34,881 nucleotides of DNA from Lachnospiraceae bacterium (GTDB lineage: Bacteria > Bacillota > Clostridia > Lachnospirales > Lachnospiraceae): NCBI GenBank assembly GCA_016281085.1, contig JAEEHY010000174.1, positions 1 through 34,881 of the forward strand, given 5' to 3'. Positions within the stretch are counted from its first letter, which is position 1; every line of letters begins with the position of its first letter. The position numbers and the translations under genes are program-made. The notes under the pieces were generated by a model that searched no databases, was not told where the DNA came from, and saw nothing but the letters and a program-made list of their open reading frames with translations. Below are positions 3,003-31,837 of this stretch, one piece after another.

Positions 3003-3482
3003 ATGGCGAAACTTGATCGTAACAGATTGATGTTTTTTGCATCCTTCAACGGGACCAACTGGGAAGTTCTTGGACGTGATAATGATGATCTGTCTAAGGC
3101 ACTTAACCCGGATACGGAAACGTCGAAGAACGTGCTGGGTGAGTCAACCTTTAAGCATTCTGGCTATGAGCCTGAAATAGAGGTTGATCCCTACTACGCA
3201 GACCCGTCATCCGCACTGTATGAAAAGCTGATTGCTGCTGCTATGCAGGAAAAGTACGGTGATGATGATATCAAGGGTTATTTTGTAGAAGTTATCTTCT
3301 CAACCGTTAACGGCGATACCATGAGCGGCACGGGTTATAAGCGCGACGCTTATATTGTACCGCAGTCAACCGGTGGTGATACCGCAGGTCTGGGTATTCC
3401 TTTTACCATTAACCCTGTCGGATCACAGACAACGGTATCCGTTTCATACACTAAGTCAACCAGGGCAGTGACTATAACCTAA
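3003..3482 (+). CDS. Major tail protein, copy 1
   Basis: Followed by a close paralogue (3496-4137); SD AGGAGG upstream; position upstream of tail chaperone and tape measure. Confidence 0.7.
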   Translation: MAKLDRNRLMFFASFNGTNWEVLGRDNDDLSKALNPDTETSKNVLGESTFKHSGYEPEIEVDPYYADPSSALYEKLIAAAMQEKYGDDDIKGYFVEVIFSTVNGDTMSGTGYKRDAYIVPQSTGGDTAGLGIPFTINPVGSQTTVSVSYTKSTRAVTIT

Positions 3483-3495
3483 GGAGGTGTAAAAG

Positions 3496-4137
3496 ATGGC
3501 TAAATTAGATCGTAACAGACTTATGTTCTTTGCTTCCTTTGATAGTTCAAACTGGGAGGCTTTAGGACGTGACAATGATGATCTGTCAAAGGCACTCAAT
3601 CCTGATACTGAAACCAGTAAGAATGTGCTTGGAGAGTCAACCTTTAAGCATTCGGGATATGAGTCAGAGGTTGAGACAGATCCTTACTACGCAGATCCGT
3701 CATCTCCGCTTTATGAGAAGCTGGCGGCTGCTGCTATGCAGGAAAAATACGGTGACACAGATATTCTTGGATACTTCCTTGAAGTTATCTTTGATACCGT
3801 CAATGCATCCGCAGGCACTATGAGTGGTACAGGATATATGCGTCAGGCATACATTGTACCGCAGTCAACCGGTGGTGATACCGCAGGTCTGGGCATACCG
3901 TTCACGGTTAACCCCGTAGGCGCGCAGACGCAGAAAAGCGTTGTTTACACGAAGGCTACACGGGCTGTGAGTGTATCCGCAGCAGCAACATACACCTACA
4001 GCGCAGTTACGCCTGAGAGTGGCGACAATCCTGCAAGCGAGGGATGGTATGAGAAGTACGGCACAGGTACATACATGAGCACGACTGATACAACTTGCGT
4101 AACAGGTAAGACCTATTACGAGCGCAGTTCGGGCTGA
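3496..4137 (+). CDS. Major tail protein, copy 2 with C-terminal extension
   Basis: Shares most of its length with the 3003-3482 product (MAKLDRNRLMFFASF...GLGIPFT.NPVG); extra C-terminal segment TYTYSAVTPESGDNPASEGWYEKYG...YYERSSG. Confidence 0.7.
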   Translation: MAKLDRNRLMFFASFDSSNWEALGRDNDDLSKALNPDTETSKNVLGESTFKHSGYESEVETDPYYADPSSPLYEKLAAAAMQEKYGDTDILGYFLEVIFDTVNASAGTMSGTGYMRQAYIVPQSTGGDTAGLGIPFTVNPVGAQTQKSVVYTKATRAVSVSAAATYTYSAVTPESGDNPASEGWYEKYGTGTYMSTTDTTCVTGKTYYERSSG

Positions 4138-14330: not shown

Positions 14331-15503
14331 ATGGCTATCAAAACTATTTCAGAGCTGCCGGAAAAGCTCAATCTTAGCAACAGCGATCTGTTTGTTGTTG
14401 ATGACGGCGACAACAACTATCGCATTACGTGGGCACAGCTTATCCAGCTTTTACCGTGCGTAAGTCAGTTCAAAAAAGATGACGAGACAGGCACGATAAG
14501 CATTAAGCTCACAAACAACCAGATACTTTCAATTGTACCGCATGATCCGACTAAACTGAATGCTTCCGCTTATGTGGTATTTACGGGGGCTACACAGAGC
14601 ACGGAGGGTGCAGCCGGTATTGTACCGAAACCCACAGCGATTAACAAGTATCTTGGATCAGGCGGGTCGTGGGAGACACCTGATACTACACCTACGCAGG
14701 ACTCACAGAAGCTCATCACGTCAGCAGGCGTATTCAATGCGCTGAATGATAAGGTAAGCATCCAGGATAACGCGGGCTTCCATAACAGCATATTCAGAGG
14801 AAAGAACCTCGGATCATCCCTTACAGCGGCGCAAAAAACCGCTATAGCTGCCGGTACATTTGAAGATATGTATATAGGCGACTACTGGGAGATCAACAGT
14901 GTCAAGTATCGTATCGCACACTTTGACTACTGGCTGAATTGTGGTGATGGAAGTAACGTATGCACGGATCATCACGTAGTTGTTGTACCGGACAGCGCAC
15001 TGGTTAACAAGAGGATGAATGCAAAGGTTGATAATGTGGATACAACCGCAGGTGCGTATGTCAATTCCGAAATGCGCACAACTAACCTTGCAGACGCTAA
15101 GACCATTGTTAATGCGGCGTTTGGTGCTGATAACATTCTGGGGCACAGAGAGTACATGCAGAATGCTGTAACTGACGGCTATGAGTCAGCGGGAGCTTGG
15201 GTTAATGCTGATATCGAGCTTATGAGTGAGATTATGGTATACGGCTCAAATATCTTCCATAACGTGAAGTGTGGAACAGCCCTGCCTAACCTTTATACGG
15301 TTAATAAGACGCAGCTTGCATTGTTCAGACTTGATCCGTCGTACATCATATGCAAGAACGTCGCACAGACAGACCGATCTTACTGGTGGCTTCGTGATGT
15401 TGTATCTGCTACGTACTTCGCTCTTGTCAGCGCCGGCGGCAGTGCCTACGCTGGCGGCGCGTCGGACACTATTGGCGTGCGCCCGGCTTTCGGAATCAAA
15501 TAA
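14331..15503 (+). CDS. Tail-fibre-like protein, DGR target 1 carrying VR1 at its C-terminus
   Basis: Fibre-like N-terminus; C-terminus SYWWLRDVVSATYFALVSAGGSAYAGGASDTIGVRPAFGIK aligns to TR-encoded SNWWLRDVVSATNFANVNNNGNANNNGASNSNGVRPDF with changes at Asn codons. Confidence 0.9.
   Translation: MAIKTISELPEKLNLSNSDLFVVDDGDNNYRITWAQLIQLLPCVSQFKKDDETGTISIKLTNNQILSIVPHDPTKLNASAYVVFTGATQSTEGAAGIVPKPTAINKYLGSGGSWETPDTTPTQDSQKLITSAGVFNALNDKVSIQDNAGFHNSIFRGKNLGSSLTAAQKTAIAAGTFEDMYIGDYWEINSVKYRIAHFDYWLNCGDGSNVCTDHHVVVVPDSALVNKRMNAKVDNVDTTAGAYVNSEMRTTNLADAKTIVNAAFGADNILGHREYMQNAVTDGYESAGAWVNADIELMSEIMVYGSNIFHNVKCGTALPNLYTVNKTQLALFRLDPSYIICKNVAQTDRSYWWLRDVVSATYFALVSAGGSAYAGGASDTIGVRPAFGIK
15374..15492 (+). 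repeat. DGR variable repeat VR1
   Basis: Ungapped match to TR 16204-16322; 18 of 30 TR adenines substituted, 1 of 87 non-adenines (16204-16320). Confidence 0.95.
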
Positions 15504-15511
15504 TCTTCAAT

Positions 15512-15532
15512 CCCCGCCCCTCGTGGGCGGGG
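15512..15532 (+). promoter_or_regulatory. GC-rich hairpin downstream of VR1 (putative DGR target-site hairpin)
   Basis: ccccgccc (15512-15519) - ctcgt - gggcgggg (15525-15532): 8-bp stem, 5-nt loop, right after the stop codon. Confidence 0.8.
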
Positions 15533-15538
15533 TCAATA

Positions 15539-16180
15539 GTGGATAAGGAGATAGATAAAGTGTCAAGTGTACCATTAAGCAGACGTAAACCTTCACGCTT
15601 TGAAGCAGAACATCAATACTACAAACTTCGCGACGCAGTAACAGAGTTTATGTTACTGGATTTTGGCTTTTCACAGGAGAAGTATGCAAGAAAAATTGAG
15701 AGATATCGCGCTACACACTGTGGAGTTGATAACGTGGATGAAGTAGTTGCGCGGTTCAAGAAAAAGTCGGATGCATTTTATGATTGGTACATAGACAAAG
15801 AGTGTAATGCCATTCTTAAGATTTTGCAGGATATTGAAGCAGAGTTTACTTTTGGCAATTCAATCTATCCCTCGGAAACAGCGGCAAAACTTTTTGAGTT
15901 TATAGAACGCAGGAAGCATATCAACGCCGCTATCGCAAACTGCTATATCTTACGCCAGGAGCTACAGGATATCGTGAGGATCTTGCCCGTTGACTTCAAC
16001 AAGTGCACGCGCTTCACGGAGGCTATTGATAAGCAGATTGCGTTATTTAAGGGTGTAAGACAGGCTGATAACCGGTTCTTACGCACAAAGAAACGTAACG
16101 AATTAACCAATGATATCATACAAATACTGAACGGGATTATATCAGTCGTATCCCAGATGGAAAACAGGGTTACTGATTAG
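15539..16180 (+). CDS. Putative DGR accessory protein (Avd-like)
   Basis: Located between target and TR, mostly helical composition; SD AAGGAG suggests GTG start at 15560. Call is by position and helical character. Confidence 0.55.
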   Translation: MDKEIDKVSSVPLSRRKPSRFEAEHQYYKLRDAVTEFMLLDFGFSQEKYARKIERYRATHCGVDNVDEVVARFKKKSDAFYDWYIDKECNAILKILQDIEAEFTFGNSIYPSETAAKLFEFIERRKHINAAIANCYILRQELQDIVRILPVDFNKCTRFTEAIDKQIALFKGVRQADNRFLRTKKRNELTNDIIQILNGIISVVSQMENRVTD

Positions 16181-16203: not shown

Positions 16204-16322
16204 CCGATCTAACTGGTGGCTTCGTGATGTTGTATCTGCTACGAACTTCGCTAATGTCAACAACAACGGCAATGCCAACAATAACGGCGCGTCGAACAGT
16301 AATGGCGTGCGCCCGGATTTCG
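16204..16322 (+). repeat. DGR template repeat (TR)
   Basis: Non-coding copy of the VR with AAC/AAT-rich core; lies between accessory ORF and RT; both VRs differ from it essentially only at A positions. Confidence 0.95.
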
Positions 16323-16503: not shown

Positions 16504-17670
16504 ATGGAAATAGTTTCTGATATGAATGTGCTGTATGAGGCATTCAGGGCTTCAATGAAAAGCAGCTCATGGAAGGAGGAACCACAACGCTTTGAAGCAA
16601 ACTTTTTGTCAGAGTTAAATGCACTGAGAATAGAGCTTGAAGAGAAGTCGTATAAAACCTTACCGGGCAATGAGTTTGAACAGAATGAGAGAGGCAAGAA
16701 GAGACACATACACGGTAACAGGATGCGTGACAGAGTAGTAAGGCACGCCTTGTGTGATAAGGTGTTGGGTCCCTGCTTACAGCCCTATATCATTTATAAC
16801 AACGGTGCCAGTCAGGAAGGTAAAGGTGTGGACTTCTCACGCAGACTGTTTGAGAGGGACTTGCATAACTACTGGTTAGAGTACAGGACTAATGACGGCT
16901 ATATTGCTTTCGTGGATCTGTCAAAGTTTTATGACAATATCCGGCATGACGTTACAAAGGCTATGATCTGTCCTAAGATAGATCCATTTTCCGGGTGGCT
17001 CTTCTCAAATATCGTAGACTCATTTCAGGTGGATGTATCATACATGACAGATGAAGAGTATTCGCGTTGCCTGGATAATAAGTTTGACTCTATCAAGTAT
17101 TACGCCAACGTCCCGAAAGAAGCACGGACGGGTGAAAAGTATATGGCAAAGTCAGCCAATATCGGAGATCAGACGGCACAGAATATTGGGGTTTACCTGC
17201 CTACACGAATCGACAACTATGTAACTATCGTGAGAGGCTTTAAACGGTACGGCCGTTATATGGATGATATGTACCTGATACACCCTGACAAAGAGTACTT
17301 AGAAGAAACACTTAAGGGTATGTATGAGGAAGCAACACGACTCGGATTTTTCATAAATCAGAAGAAAACGCGTGTGTGCAAGCTGTCCGATACATACACT
17401 TATCTTCAATTCAAGTATTATCTGACGGATACAGGCAAGGTTGTTAAACGGATCAATCCTAAGTCAGTAACACGTCAGAGAAGAAAACTTAAGAAGTATC
17501 ACAACCTGTGGAGCAAAAACGTAGTTTCCTATGACACGGTAAAGCAGGAATATAAGTCGTGGATGGGAAGATACGCTAAATATATGTCGAAAGCACAGAT
17601 ACGGCATATGAAGGAATTATACCAATACTTATTTAAGGAGGATGTAAGATGGAAGGAAAATACACCATAA
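16504..17670 (+). CDS. DGR reverse transcriptase
   Basis: RT motifs: GYIAFVDLSKFYDNIRHD, ANIGDQTAQNIGVYLPTRID, and the YxDD catalytic motif GRYMDDMYLI; adjacent to TR/VR. Confidence 0.95.
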   Translation: MEIVSDMNVLYEAFRASMKSSSWKEEPQRFEANFLSELNALRIELEEKSYKTLPGNEFEQNERGKKRHIHGNRMRDRVVRHALCDKVLGPCLQPYIIYNNGASQEGKGVDFSRRLFERDLHNYWLEYRTNDGYIAFVDLSKFYDNIRHDVTKAMICPKIDPFSGWLFSNIVDSFQVDVSYMTDEEYSRCLDNKFDSIKYYANVPKEARTGEKYMAKSANIGDQTAQNIGVYLPTRIDNYVTIVRGFKRYGRYMDDMYLIHPDKEYLEETLKGMYEEATRLGFFINQKKTRVCKLSDTYTYLQFKYYLTDTGKVVKRINPKSVTRQRRKLKKYHNLWSKNVVSYDTVKQEYKSWMGRYAKYMSKAQIRHMKELYQYLFKEDVRWKENTP

Positions 17671-20008: not shown

Positions 20009-20042
20009 GGCTCCTCGGATTGCCACCGGGGAGCCGCTTTTT
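20009..20042 (+). terminator. Intrinsic terminator of the late operon
   Basis: ggctcctcgg (20009-20018) / ccggggagcc (20026-20035) followed by gcttttttta. Confidence 0.85.
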
Positions 20043-25054: not shown

Positions 25055-25134
25055 AGTATAAAAAATTTGACTTTTTATATTGACAGTCTAAATGATTGGA
25101 CTTATAATAGGGTCACAGTCAAATATTTTAGACT
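25055..25134. promoter_or_regulatory. Divergent control region with three 18-bp operators and early promoter
   Basis: AGTATAAAAAATTTGACT (25055-25072), AGTCTAAATGATTGGACT (25085-25102), AGTCAAATATTTTAGACT (25117-25134); + strand promoter TTGACA (25080-25085) -N17- TATAAT (25103-25108). Confidence 0.8.
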
Positions 25135-25631: not shown

Positions 25632-26178
25632 AGCAGATATGACAATTCAGGTTCAGATCAGTGCGCCGGACTTAGTAGCAGCTATCACAGCTTTAACAGA
25701 CGCTATCGCTGGAAGCAAAGTAGAGCCTACAGCACCGGCAGTCAAGATTGAACAGGTACAGGCGGTACCGCAGCAGGATATAATGCCCGCACCGGTAGTT
25801 GAGGCACCACAGCCCGCAGCCGCAGTACCCACAACACCAACACCCGCACCAGTACAGCAAGCACAGCCCGCGCCCGCACCAGTACAGCAGGTGGTACCGA
25901 CAGCGGCACCAGTACAGCAGGCACAGCCCGCACCAGTACAGCAGGCACAGCCCGCACCGGTTCAGACAGCAGCGGCACCTGCTACACCGACCGCACCGGC
26001 TCTTACGCTTGACGCTATCAGCGCAGCAGGGGCACAGCTTATCCAGGACAATCCCGATAATATGCAGAAGATCTTAGGGCTTTTACCTAAGTACAACGTT
26101 CCCGCTATCAATCTCATAAAGCCCGAACAGTTTGAGGCTGTGGCAGCAGATCTGAGAGCGTTAGGAGCGAAGATATGA
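25624..26178 (+). CDS. Early phage protein with Pro/Ala/Gln repeat linker
   Basis: ORF 25567-26178; SD AAGGAGG favours ATG 25624; PAPVQQAQ repeats between short N- and C-terminal domains. Confidence 0.65.
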   Translation: MAKADMTIQVQISAPDLVAAITALTDAIAGSKVEPTAPAVKIEQVQAVPQQDIMPAPVVEAPQPAAAVPTTPTPAPVQQAQPAPAPVQQVVPTAAPVQQAQPAPVQQAQPAPVQTAAAPATPTAPALTLDAISAAGAQLIQDNPDNMQKILGLLPKYNVPAINLIKPEQFEAVAADLRALGAKI

Positions 26179-27834: not shown

Positions 27835-28635
27835 ATGTATCAGGGTATTCCTACAAAAGTTTTAACGGGAGAGTGCAGACTGTCGTATGTGCATTTATCA
27901 CAGCCTTATCTCAATCCCAACAATTCAAATAGTGAGCCTAAGTATCAGGTCACTATGCTTATCCCTAAAACGGATCAGGCAACCTACAACGATATAATCA
28001 AGTCAAGGGACGCAGCTTATGAAGCAGCGGTACAGAATGACTGGAAGGGTAACAGACCGCAGTTAAGATCATTACTTATCTATGACGGCGACGGAGTACG
28101 TCAGGACGGTTCAAAATTCGGTCCTGAATGCGCTGGACACTGGGTTATAACTGCTTCAACAAAGCGTAAGCCACAGGTTGTTGATATATCAAATATCAAC
28201 GTGGAGCTTGCACCGCAGGATATCTACAGCGGTATGTATGGACGTGTAACACTCAATTTCTTTTCATTCAATAGTAACGGAAACAAGGGTATAGGTTGTG
28301 GACTCGGAAACGTTCTTAAGACAAGAGATGGAGAGCAGCTTGCAGGTGGATCTACAGCAGAACAGGATTTTGCCGAAATTACAGCGGCTATACAGCAGCA
28401 GGCAGCACCAGTACCGCAGGCAGCACCAGTACCGCAGGCACCACAGGGAGGAATGGTACCGCAGGCACAGGGTTACGGTTCGGTTCCTGGCGTTCAGGGA
28501 GGAATGGTACCGCAGGCACAGGGTTACGGTCCGGTTCCTGGCGTTCAGGGAGCTACACCGACCGCAGGATATACGCCTGTCCCGAATATTGATCCCATAA
28601 CCGGACAGCCGTTATCACCTTTGCCGTTTGGTTAA
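27835..28635 (+). CDS. DUF2815-like (putative ssDNA-binding) protein with repetitive C-terminus
   Basis: GECRLSYVHLSQPYLNPNNSNSEPKYQVTMLIPKTDQATYNDI...; C-terminal GGMVPQAQGYG.VPGVQ repeats. Confidence 0.8.
   Translation: MYQGIPTKVLTGECRLSYVHLSQPYLNPNNSNSEPKYQVTMLIPKTDQATYNDIIKSRDAAYEAAVQNDWKGNRPQLRSLLIYDGDGVRQDGSKFGPECAGHWVITASTKRKPQVVDISNINVELAPQDIYSGMYGRVTLNFFSFNSNGNKGIGCGLGNVLKTRDGEQLAGGSTAEQDFAEITAAIQQQAAPVPQAAPVPQAPQGGMVPQAQGYGSVPGVQGGMVPQAQGYGPVPGVQGATPTAGYTPVPNIDPITGQPLSPLPFG
28447..28548 (+). repeat. Two tandem 51-bp repeats inside the DUF2815-like gene
   Basis: 28447-28497 and 28498-28548 differ at a single t/c position. Confidence 0.9.
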
Positions 28636-28825: not shown

Positions 28826-30820
28826 ATGCATACTCTATTCATAGATCTTGAAACTTTTTCAAGTGTTCCAATAACAGATGCGGGAGCTTATAAGTACGTT
28901 CAAAGCCCCGATTTTGAAATTCTGTTATTCGCTTATTCAATAGATTATCAACCGGTACAGGTTATAGACCTTGCATCCGGCCAAATCCTACTAGACGATA
29001 TCAAAACAGCTCTTACAGATCCCGATTATTTGAAGCACGCCTACAACGCGGCATTCGAGTTTATGTGCTTATCTAAAGTATATGGAAGTATGATCCCGTC
29101 ACAGTGGCGTTGCACAATGATCCACGGTCTGTATTGCGGATATCCCGCAGGACTGGGAGTTATCGGTGCAGTTCTCGGAATGCCGGAAGATAAGCAGAAA
29201 CTTACGACCGGCAAAGCTCTTATCAGATATTTTTGTGTACCTTGTAGACCTACCAAATCAAATGGTGGAAGGACACGTAACCTTCCCAAACATGATCCCG
29301 AAAAATGGAGTCTGTTTGTTGAGTACAACAGACAGGATGTAGTTGCAGAACAGGAAATAGAGAAACGGCTTGTGTTGTATCCAGTTCCCGATCATATACA
29401 GAAGCAGTGGGAAACGGATCTGATTATCAATATGCGCGGCGTATCGGTTGATATGGAGTTTGTGCAGGGCGCGCTTGGTATCGGACAGCAGTTGACCTAT
29501 GACCTTATGGAAGAAGCAAAGCAGCTTACCGGACTTGAAAACCCTAACAGCGTTCAGCAGCTTAAGACCTGGATAAACACCCGTCTGTTTGGTAAGTCAG
29601 GCGTGAGTGATCTTCAAAAAGATACAGTAACAAAGCTGCTTGCGGAGCAGGATCTACCCGCTGACGTTAAGAGGGTATTAGAGATACGTCAGGAGCTTGG
29701 TAAGACCAGTACAAAGAAGTATAACGCCATAGAGGATTGTGTGTGCGAGGATGACAGGGTAAGAGGACTTTTACAGTTCTATGGAGCAAACCGGACAGGC
29801 CGCTGGGCAGGACGTTTGGTACAGGTGCAAAACTTACCGCGTACCTATACCAATCCTATCGACCTTGCGAGGGATCTTGTGAGGCGCAGACAGTCTAAGG
29901 CACTGAGAGTAGTTTATGGGTCGGTCAATGATACACTGTCGCAGCTTATCAGGACGGCGTTCGTTGCTACACAGGGCAATGTGCTGATTGACGCGGACTT
30001 TTCGGCAATCGAAGCACGGGTTATATCGTGGCTTGCAGGCGAGGAATGGCGACTTAACGTATTCAGGACGCACGGTAAGATCTACGAAGCAAGCGCGAGT
30101 CAGATGTTTGGAGTTCCTATTGAGTTGATAAAGAAGGGCAATCCCGAATATGCGCTTAGAGCCAAAGGTAAGGTTGCGGAGCTTGCGCTTGGATATCAGG
30201 GGTCCGTAGGCGCACTGATACAGATGGGCGCGCTGGATAACGGTCTGGAAGAGTCAGAGCTGCCTGATATCGTCAATAAATGGAGGCAGGCTAACAACCG
30301 TATACAGGCATTGTGGGATGAGCTTAACAGGGCTGCTATCGAGGTTATAGATCAGGGTGGATCACGTCATTTACACGGGCTTATCCTTGCGCGCGAGTGT
30401 GATATCATCCGGGGTACTGTATCCTTCACGATCACGTTACCGTCAGGACGCAAGCTGTATTATATCAATCCTTCACTCGGAGAAAACCAGTGGGGCGGCG
30501 CGTCAATCTGTTATATGGGTATGGATCAGTCTACTAAGAAGTGGACTAAGCTGGAAACATACGGCGGGAAGCTGACAGAGAATATAGTACAGGCTATCGC
30601 GCGTGACTTGCTTGCGGAAGCGATAGAGAGACTTGCAGCAGCGGGCTATCCAATCGTATTCCATGTTCACGACGAGGTGATAATAGACATCAAGCCTTAC
30701 GCAGATAATGAGAAAATGCTTAAGGACGTGGTTGAGATAATGTCAGTAGTTCCTTCCTGGGCTACAGGCTTACCGCTTGGAGCCGACGGCTGGGTAGGCG
30801 ATTACTTTACTAAGGAATGA
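28826..30820 (+). CDS. Phage DNA polymerase, family A, with 3'-5' exonuclease domain
   Basis: LFIDLETFSS exonuclease motif; DADFSAIEARVISWLAGEEWRLNVF; AKGKVAELALGYQGSVGAL; FHVHDEVIIDI. Confidence 0.95.
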   Translation: MHTLFIDLETFSSVPITDAGAYKYVQSPDFEILLFAYSIDYQPVQVIDLASGQILLDDIKTALTDPDYLKHAYNAAFEFMCLSKVYGSMIPSQWRCTMIHGLYCGYPAGLGVIGAVLGMPEDKQKLTTGKALIRYFCVPCRPTKSNGGRTRNLPKHDPEKWSLFVEYNRQDVVAEQEIEKRLVLYPVPDHIQKQWETDLIINMRGVSVDMEFVQGALGIGQQLTYDLMEEAKQLTGLENPNSVQQLKTWINTRLFGKSGVSDLQKDTVTKLLAEQDLPADVKRVLEIRQELGKTSTKKYNAIEDCVCEDDRVRGLLQFYGANRTGRWAGRLVQVQNLPRTYTNPIDLARDLVRRRQSKALRVVYGSVNDTLSQLIRTAFVATQGNVLIDADFSAIEARVISWLAGEEWRLNVFRTHGKIYEASASQMFGVPIELIKKGNPEYALRAKGKVAELALGYQGSVGALIQMGALDNGLEESELPDIVNKWRQANNRIQALWDELNRAAIEVIDQGGSRHLHGLILARECDIIRGTVSFTITLPSGRKLYYINPSLGENQWGGASICYMGMDQSTKKWTKLETYGGKLTENIVQAIARDLLAEAIERLAAAGYPIVFHVHDEVIIDIKPYADNEKMLKDVVEIMSVVPSWATGLPLGADGWVGDYFTKE

Positions 30821-30994: not shown

Positions 30995-31236
30995 TGGCTA
31001 TAGAGAAAAGATACGAGGGCAAAGAACAGTATTATACGCTTGTGTGCGACCGTTGCGGTGATGAAGTCGGATATTTTGACGACTTTCAGGAAGCGGTTGA
31101 TGAAAAGCGCAGATACGGGTTCCGGTCATTCAATATAGACGGTATATGGGAAGATGTGTGTGCGGACTGTCAGGATACGGTGCAGTATAAGCGCGGTACA
31201 GCAACGGCCGCAGATGATTTTGGAGGATTGATATGA
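30994..31236 (+). CDS. Small zinc-ribbon-like protein
   Basis: CDRCGDEVGYF...CADCQD. Confidence 0.55.
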   Translation: MAIEKRYEGKEQYYTLVCDRCGDEVGYFDDFQEAVDEKRRYGFRSFNIDGIWEDVCADCQDTVQYKRGTATAADDFGGLI

Positions 31237-31817
31237 AAGTATACAGAGAAGTAAAGATGAAAGTAGAACACTTTGAGCTATGTGATTCTATAGATGTAAA
31301 ACTTAAGGGCATAGGTAAGTTTACGGCGACGGCTTATAAGGTATATGAAGATGGGAGTGCGCTGTTTATCTTTGATGAATGTATCACTGACAGACCTATG
31401 AATAATAAGAGCACAAACGAGGGCGGCTTTAACCAGTCGGATCTGAGGAAGTGGATGAACACAGAGCTGCTGAGAGCATTCCCGGCAAAGATACGTACAC
31501 GAATGATGGATGTACGCGTCAATGATGATGAGGACGCAATGCTGCTAAGAGTGCCTACACGGATGGAGATGTTTGGAACGGATGAATATACAGACGATTA
31601 TGAGGCAGAAAACAATGAGCGTTTGGCGTTTATGGATATCCGCAGCAACCGCGTATGTATGAGTCCGGCTGACGAATATTGCTGGTATTGGTTATGGAAT
31701 AGGCGTGTTGTATCTGCTACGAACTTCGCTTTTGTCGCCTACTACGGCCTTGCCGGCGATTACGGCGCGTCGAACAGTGTTGGCGTGCGCCCGGCTTTCA
31801 GGATCAACTATCTTTAA
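31233..31817 (+). CDS. DGR target 2: DUF6273-like protein carrying VR2 at its C-terminus
   Basis: FNQSDLRKWMNTELL...RVPTRMEMFG...YWLWNRRVVSATNFAFVAYYGLAGDYGASNSVGVRPAFRI; C-terminus aligns to the TR. DUF6273 resemblance is from memory of the family. Confidence 0.85.
   Translation: MKVYREVKMKVEHFELCDSIDVKLKGIGKFTATAYKVYEDGSALFIFDECITDRPMNNKSTNEGGFNQSDLRKWMNTELLRAFPAKIRTRMMDVRVNDDEDAMLLRVPTRMEMFGTDEYTDDYEAENNERLAFMDIRSNRVCMSPADEYCWYWLWNRRVVSATNFAFVAYYGLAGDYGASNSVGVRPAFRINYL
31706..31799 (+). repeat. DGR variable repeat VR2 (remote)
   Basis: Ungapped match to TR 16228-16321; 15 of 26 TR adenines substituted, 0 of 67 non-adenines (16228-16320). Confidence 0.95.
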
Positions 31818-31820
31818 TCC

Positions 31821-31837
31821 CCGCCCCTTGTGGGCGG
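31821..31837 (+). promoter_or_regulatory. GC-rich hairpin downstream of VR2
   Basis: ccgccc (31821-31826) - cttgt - gggcgg (31832-31837), just after the stop codon; near-identical in sequence to the VR1 hairpin. Confidence 0.75.

Follow-up and report, generated by a model that had tools for sequence, protein, structure and literature searches.

A single DGR with a probable second target in a remote early gene of a temperate Clostridia phage

The window (the whole 34,881-nt stretch of DNA analysed here) very probably represents a temperate phage in which one DGR serves two targets, VR1 in a tail-region gene and VR2 in an early gene encoding a DUF6273 protein, as judged from its sequence features (Table 1). 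DGRs (diversity-generating retroelements) give phages a means to alter what they stick to, and the conservation in many Clostridia phages of a naturally hypermutated target within the replication module suggests that a protein working inside the cell is diversified as well.

Table 1. Features of the window discussed in the text, with positions counted from its first nucleotide.
Feature	Position	Strand	Remarks
Target gene 1	14331..15503	+	encodes 390 aa; lies after the tail genes; carries VR1 at its C-terminal end
VR1	15374..15492	+	18/30 TR adenines changed, 1 non-adenine
Hairpin after VR1	15512..15532	+	CCCCGCCC-CTCGT-GGGCGGGG
ORF at DGR accessory (Avd-like) gene position	15539..16180	+	213 aa; assigned by position only
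TR	16204..16322	+	ungapped comparison; between accessory ORF and RT
TR part common to VR2	16228..16321	+	ungapped comparison
DGR reverse transcriptase (RT)	16504..17670	+	388 aa; YMDD motif, IGDQTAQ motif
Promoter-like site	25080..25108	+	TTGACA-17-TATAAT; consensus match only; divergent repressor/early-gene gap
Family A DNA polymerase (polA)	28826..30820	+	Pfam DNA_pol_A; synteny; upstream of target 2
Target gene 2	31233..31817	+	194-aa DUF6273 protein; early/replication module
VR2	31706..31799	+	15/26 TR adenines changed, 0/68 others
Hairpin after VR2	31821..31837	+	CCGCCC-CTTGT-GGGCGG; just beyond stop codon

One template and two targets in the window

The DGR lies in a gene order of tail genes, target 1, a 213-aa ORF, TR, RT, lysis genes and a terminator-like site (20009-20035), and beyond the lysis genes a large serine recombinase and a repressor are encoded on the minus strand. 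The RT is of DGR type by its profile matches (Pfam RVT_1, 3e-10; PHROG reverse transcriptase, 4e-52) together with its two motifs. The 213-aa ORF has no family match in Pfam, PHROGs, NCBIfam or PADLOC and may be a DGR accessory protein of an unrecognised kind. Target 1 gave a weak DUF6273 match at residues 327-390 that scored just below the cut-off (23.4 vs 23.5), and outside the VR itself little of the VR1 domain matches the DUF6273 family. The tail region also contains a tandemly duplicated gene (3003-3482 and 3496-4137), whose copies share two blocks with DNA identities of 77% and 74%; the second copy also bears an extra C-terminal part.

The TR and VR2 align without gaps over 94 nt, with adenines changed to T at seven sites, to G at five and to C at three. 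The first-pass annotation had correctly counted 15 of 26 adenines as changed, while its total of 67 unchanged non-adenines should have been 68 (94 - 26). If mismatch positions were random, all 15 would hit adenines with P = 8e-11. We found no points favouring an ordinary duplication in which the adenine bias arose by chance or by another mutational process, and we give this reading almost no weight given the P value in the window alone, the recurrence of the pattern in 20 other phages, each with its own TR, and the failure of a shuffled TR to give anything. The TR match of VR1 is longer, at 119 nt. Only the TR, VR1 (15398) and VR2 appeared as sites with few non-adenine mismatches in the window, and no fourth copy was found in the whole 3.26-Mb assembly. 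The signature and the restriction to three copies bear out the proposal made in the first-pass annotation that the same TR and RT serve VR2 as a second target, 15 kb distant and separate from the tail module.

Across the 26 adenine sites shared by the two targets, VR1 is changed at 17, VR2 at 15 and both at 11, with an identical base at only 4 of these 11. Since the bases differ at most sites changed in both, VR1 and VR2 were mutagenised separately, in agreement with the earlier suggestion that each was independently mutagenised from one TR. VR1 and VR2 share the same reading frame relative to the TR, whose adenines fall mostly within AAC/AAT codons, in which changes at adenine positions alone give no stops. 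VR2 stops 18 nt short of the end of its gene, and VR1 likewise ends near the end of its own. An A-to-C change at TR 16317 is common to VR1 and VR2 and recurs in most relatives; this is probably a fixed IMH/IMH* difference, which would leave about 14 genuine changes in VR2.

A GC-rich hairpin with a CYYGY-type loop follows both VR1 and VR2 (stems of 8 bp and 6 bp, respectively) and is absent after the TR. Across nearly all phages examined, such a hairpin lies within ~60 nt past the VR match of VR1 and VR2, usually with a stem of 5-9 bp. An analysis of 26 hairpins found strong covariation: 90% of pair cells were standard, with 61 double-sided changes compared to 19.6 +/- 3.2 in shuffled sets and a score of 0.758 compared to 0.17. 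The loops of G151 and Shimadzu VR2 deviate from the CYYGY type, a CYYGY hairpin was not found after the VRs of phage Lelie, and no good hairpin was seen in G161, which has a frameshifted target gene. The VR2 hairpin was also considered as a terminator and rejected, as no T run follows the stem. In BPP-1, the hairpin is required for homing, with a stem sequence that may vary and a GRNA loop that is constrained (PMC3240598).

Following established DGR biochemistry, the RT would make error-prone copies of RNA from the TR (16204-16322), the errors falling at adenines, and the resulting cDNA would replace either VR1 at the end of the tail-region gene or VR2 at the end of the 194-aa DUF6273 gene 15 kb off. 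The mark of a target would be the short IMH-like 3' end of the VR plus the GC-rich hairpin immediately after the stop codon, which would make distance from the TR irrelevant.

Remote targets in related phages

A small, remote DUF6273-type gene that matches its own TR with almost only adenine changes was found in 20 other phages or prophages (11 IMG/VR contigs plus Fontainebleau, Shimadzu, G028, G082, Lelie, G298, G481, G312 and G182), which extends the two-target layout of the window to related phages. Among 31 IMG/VR DGR phage contigs, 11 carried a VR2-like gene distant from the RT, either full or edge-cut, and all 11 matched their own TR with 11-19 adenine changes and 0-1 others; these contigs are often partial, which makes the absence of a remote gene from the other 20 uninformative. 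In G028 (Lachnospiraceae bacterium RGIG6779, sheep rumen), the order DUF2800, SSB, polA, two small ORFs and target 2 is kept, target 2 is 72% identical to that of the window, and VR2 differs from its own TR at 7/29 adenines and at no other site. Target 2 directly follows polA in Fontainebleau and precedes Erf in Shimadzu, and the remote VR of each has 15 adenine changes and 0 others. Remote targets lie ~9 to 51 kb away in contig coordinates, and two neighbouring remote targets are present in G152, G298 and G481.

When seven TRs were compared against seven phages, each TR matched only the targets of its own phage, and a shuffled TR used as a control gave no matches. Distances between RT proteins and between target-2 proteins correlate (Mantel r = 0.73, p = 2e-4), as expected if both travel together. 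Direct searches with the target 2 protein of the window found one genome and no IMG/VR relative, searching IMG/VR for exact TR-like patterns from the window or from Shimadzu returned nothing, and an alignment of 14 divergent homologues contained no stretch conserved enough for searching. Three relatives of the window RT (L025, L017, L074) show a different layout, in which a pair of VRs near the TR takes the place of the remote one. Four genomes (G009, G411, G425, G368) have a target-2-like gene but lack a matching DGR RT at the threshold applied, and are either incomplete assemblies or DGR-free homologues.

Comparisons between relatives, together with the hairpin as a target mark, argue that VR2 is a live DGR target, with hypermutation itself seen in the remote VRs of relatives. 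At the 9 non-adenine sites where the TRs of the window and G028 differ, the VR2 of either phage has the base of its own TR (9/9); the same tracking was found at 14/14 sites between the window and Fontainebleau and at 1/1 between Fontainebleau and its IMG/VR relative. Because VR2 tracks its own TR at diverged non-adenine sites, it does not behave as a relic, and sequence must have passed repeatedly from TR to VR2 while these phages diverged. L181 and L188, IMG/VR contigs of a related lineage from different samples, have 16 differences over 9,982 bp, all at TR adenines of the remote VR. L182 and L188 differ at 20/85 positions in the VR vs 0/3000 in the flanks, and L198 and L202 at 13/85 vs 6/2456. 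Diversity among 12 close homologues from one lineage was 0.600 at TR adenine sites, compared to 0.032 for the remaining VR sites and 0.109 for the coding region upstream. Rewriting is not constant, since the VR2s of L195 and L196 are identical, as are those of L183 and L184. Phage pairs that differ only at the remote VR provide ready natural variants.

On the alternative reading, VR2 would be a dead relic, a former target whose old copy of the VR domain has drifted since. The first-pass annotation had associated a relic with a VR2 fixed across relatives while VR1 varies or with variation away from TR adenines; in the relatives the remote VR varies, and the 16 sites that separate L181 from L188 are at TR adenines in 16/16 cases. 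Relics do occur in this family, as the homologue in G161 (L129/L158) looks dead through its frameshift and the L187 homologue looks dead as well, with a truncated frame and a 1-nt gap in the VR, and the VR2 hairpin stem in the window is shorter than that of VR1. Even so, a relic is very improbable for VR2 in the window, as its non-adenine sites are fully conserved to its own TR (0/68), it follows that TR at 9/9 diverged sites, its reading frame and hairpin are intact, and homologues differ at TR adenines between otherwise identical phages.

Early location and possible role of target 2

Target 2 is a single-domain protein that matches Pfam DUF6273 (PF19789; 9e-13, 48.9 bits vs a curated cut-off of 23.5) and phrog_21980 (4e-41), and nothing was matched in PADLOC or NCBIfam. 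DUF6273 has been reported to resemble C-type lectin domains (PMC10743442). AlphaFold models of target 2 were poor over the VR, and with these models no PDB match was obtained below E 0.001; weak structural neighbours in a viral library were DUF6273 phage proteins, and comparison to PDB sequences gave no meaningful match. No TM-like segment or obvious signal peptide was found in the 194-aa protein.

The gene for target 2 lies downstream of polA, as described previously for this locus. The promoter-like site upstream matches a sigma-70-like consensus at 12/12 positions and is followed by a plus-strand array in which target 2 comes after the genes for a DUF2800 nuclease-like protein, a ssDNA-binding protein and the DNA polymerase and then two small ORFs. 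Between the promoter-like site and VR2, no forward terminator-like site was found. Gene order, promoter-like site and uninterrupted array agree with the early, non-structural location assigned at first pass, as far as sequence can indicate. Target 2 is probably expressed early, probably from a transcription unit other than that of the DGR, and its product is probably intracellular, given the gene order and the lack of a TM segment or obvious signal peptide. Two repeat tracts also occur in this region, a 51-bp unit that occurs in two copies with 98% identity (28444-28545), in the C-terminal tail of the ssDNA-binding protein, and a second, PAQ-rich tract at 25759-25998.

Neighbours of target 2 vary across lineages and include polA, the primase N-part facing a methyltransferase or the primase C-part across the target gene, DUF6353 proteins with TM-like segments, a radical SAM protein, a G39P-like helicase-loader inhibitor, and a methyltransferase with Erf. 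The constant feature of these surroundings is the early/replication module, not a partner gene. In L155 (377-2813) and L156 (3583-7405), the remote target sits between the primase N-terminal part and a downstream DNA methyltransferase or primase C-terminal part, an arrangement that resembles an insertion into a split primase. In L188 (3077-8315), as well as L151, L152, L153, L158 and L102, two to three DUF6353/phrog_2152 proteins with TM-like segments surround the remote target, and the same cassette includes a ~100-aa phrog_10740 protein.

We tentatively propose that target 2 binds a variable intracellular partner, for example a host defence protein or a factor of a rival prophage, and is diversified to keep up with it, in parallel with a tail-region target that would track cell-surface receptors. 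Such intracellular recognition in phage-host or phage-phage conflict, although itself held with reservation, ranks above display on the virion. In the latter case target 2 would belong to the virion or the surface, its gene merely lying in the early region, and both targets would act in receptor or mucus binding. DUF6273 domains do occur in tail-region targets too, and the weak structural neighbours of target 2 are DUF6273 phage proteins. We nonetheless consider a virion component unlikely, as the remote genes lie after polA, between primase halves, or near methyltransferase, recombination or helicase-loader genes and never in the tail module, and as target 2 combines the lack of a TM-like segment or obvious signal peptide with a position downstream of the early promoter-like site and no intervening forward terminator-like site.

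Somewhat less likely still is an action of target 2 against other phages, whether by excluding superinfection or in conflicts between prophages, with small membrane proteins as possible partners. A two-TM 54-aa ORF two genes upstream of target 2 in the window, the DUF6353 proteins with TM-like segments that adjoin VR2 genes in one lineage, and the tandem duplication of the target 2 gene in some genomes are in line with this role. Against it, partner genes differ by lineage with no conserved complex seen, and there was no PADLOC model match. Returning to recognition of an intracellular partner, a widespread family of Clostridia phages could keep an early, intracellular binder, sometimes in tandem, whose binding face is rewritten by the DGR that also diversifies the tail, for counter-defence or inter-phage recognition, a generalization that we offer provisionally. 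What non-structural DGR targets bind, a long-standing question, is now testable.

Comparison with known systems

The window had been put forward as a candidate for an undescribed system, which does not hold for the two-target layout as such: two-target DGRs are known in Quimbyvirus (PMC8008677), in four gut prophage species (PMC12629997) and, according to PMC11792537, in Shimadzu. We did not find described in open-licence papers the recognition of early DUF6273 targets as one conserved family across many Clostridia phages, nor the shared non-GRNA hairpin, tandem copies and recent-rewriting evidence of that family. Surveys limited to VRs near the RT miss this class of target, and a warning of targets missed in this way was given in PMC8144416 itself.

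BPP-1 (PMC3240598) resembles the window in TR/VR adenine mutagenesis, a VR at the 3' end of a gene and a GC-rich hairpin after the VR, and its transplanted target is functional in a heterologous gene (PMC3240598). It differs in having a single, adjacent tail target and a 4-nt GRNA loop, compared to the mostly 5-nt CYYGY loops here. The Quimbyvirus DGR (PMC8008677) has a structural and a distal non-structural target, and the four gut prophage species (PMC12629997) have a distal non-structural second VR near counter-defence genes. These systems share with the window one DGR acting on a structural and a distal non-structural target, theirs being near defence/counter-defence genes. Unlike the window, Quimbyvirus infects Bacteroides, has a frameshifted RT and carries its second target on the opposite strand, and homology of that target to the one in the window is not established.

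Faecalibacterium phage Lelie and candidate prophage CP11 (PMC11792537) have, like the window, a large and a small DUF6273 target with one TR; the second VR of Lelie is ~16 kb from the TR, and both VRs of CP11 vary among cognate genomes. The RT is only ~24% identical to that of the window, and the Lelie VRs also differ in that no CYYGY hairpin was found after them. Roseburia phage Shimadzu (LR596903) has a tail protein and an unknown protein as DGR targets (Cornuault 2020, cited in PMC11792537), and for the second PMC11792537 states no more than that its function is unknown. It resembles the window in combining a single TR with two VRs, one tail-fibre and one remote; the remote VR is in a small early gene, orf43, which precedes the Erf recombinase and encodes a 28%-identical homologue of target 2. 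Shimadzu differs in its contractile tail, an RT that is ~33% identical, and a target 2 that is not beside polA.

Acutalibacter phage Fontainebleau (ON453893) and its IMG/VR relatives share the arrangement of polA followed by target 2 and differ from the window in hairpin loop and stem sequences. The text of the Fontainebleau source paper mentions no DGR, and the two-target layout of this phage appears to be unreported among open-licence papers. Among named phages, the system occurs in Shimadzu and in Fontainebleau, which is an induced Acutalibacter muris prophage.
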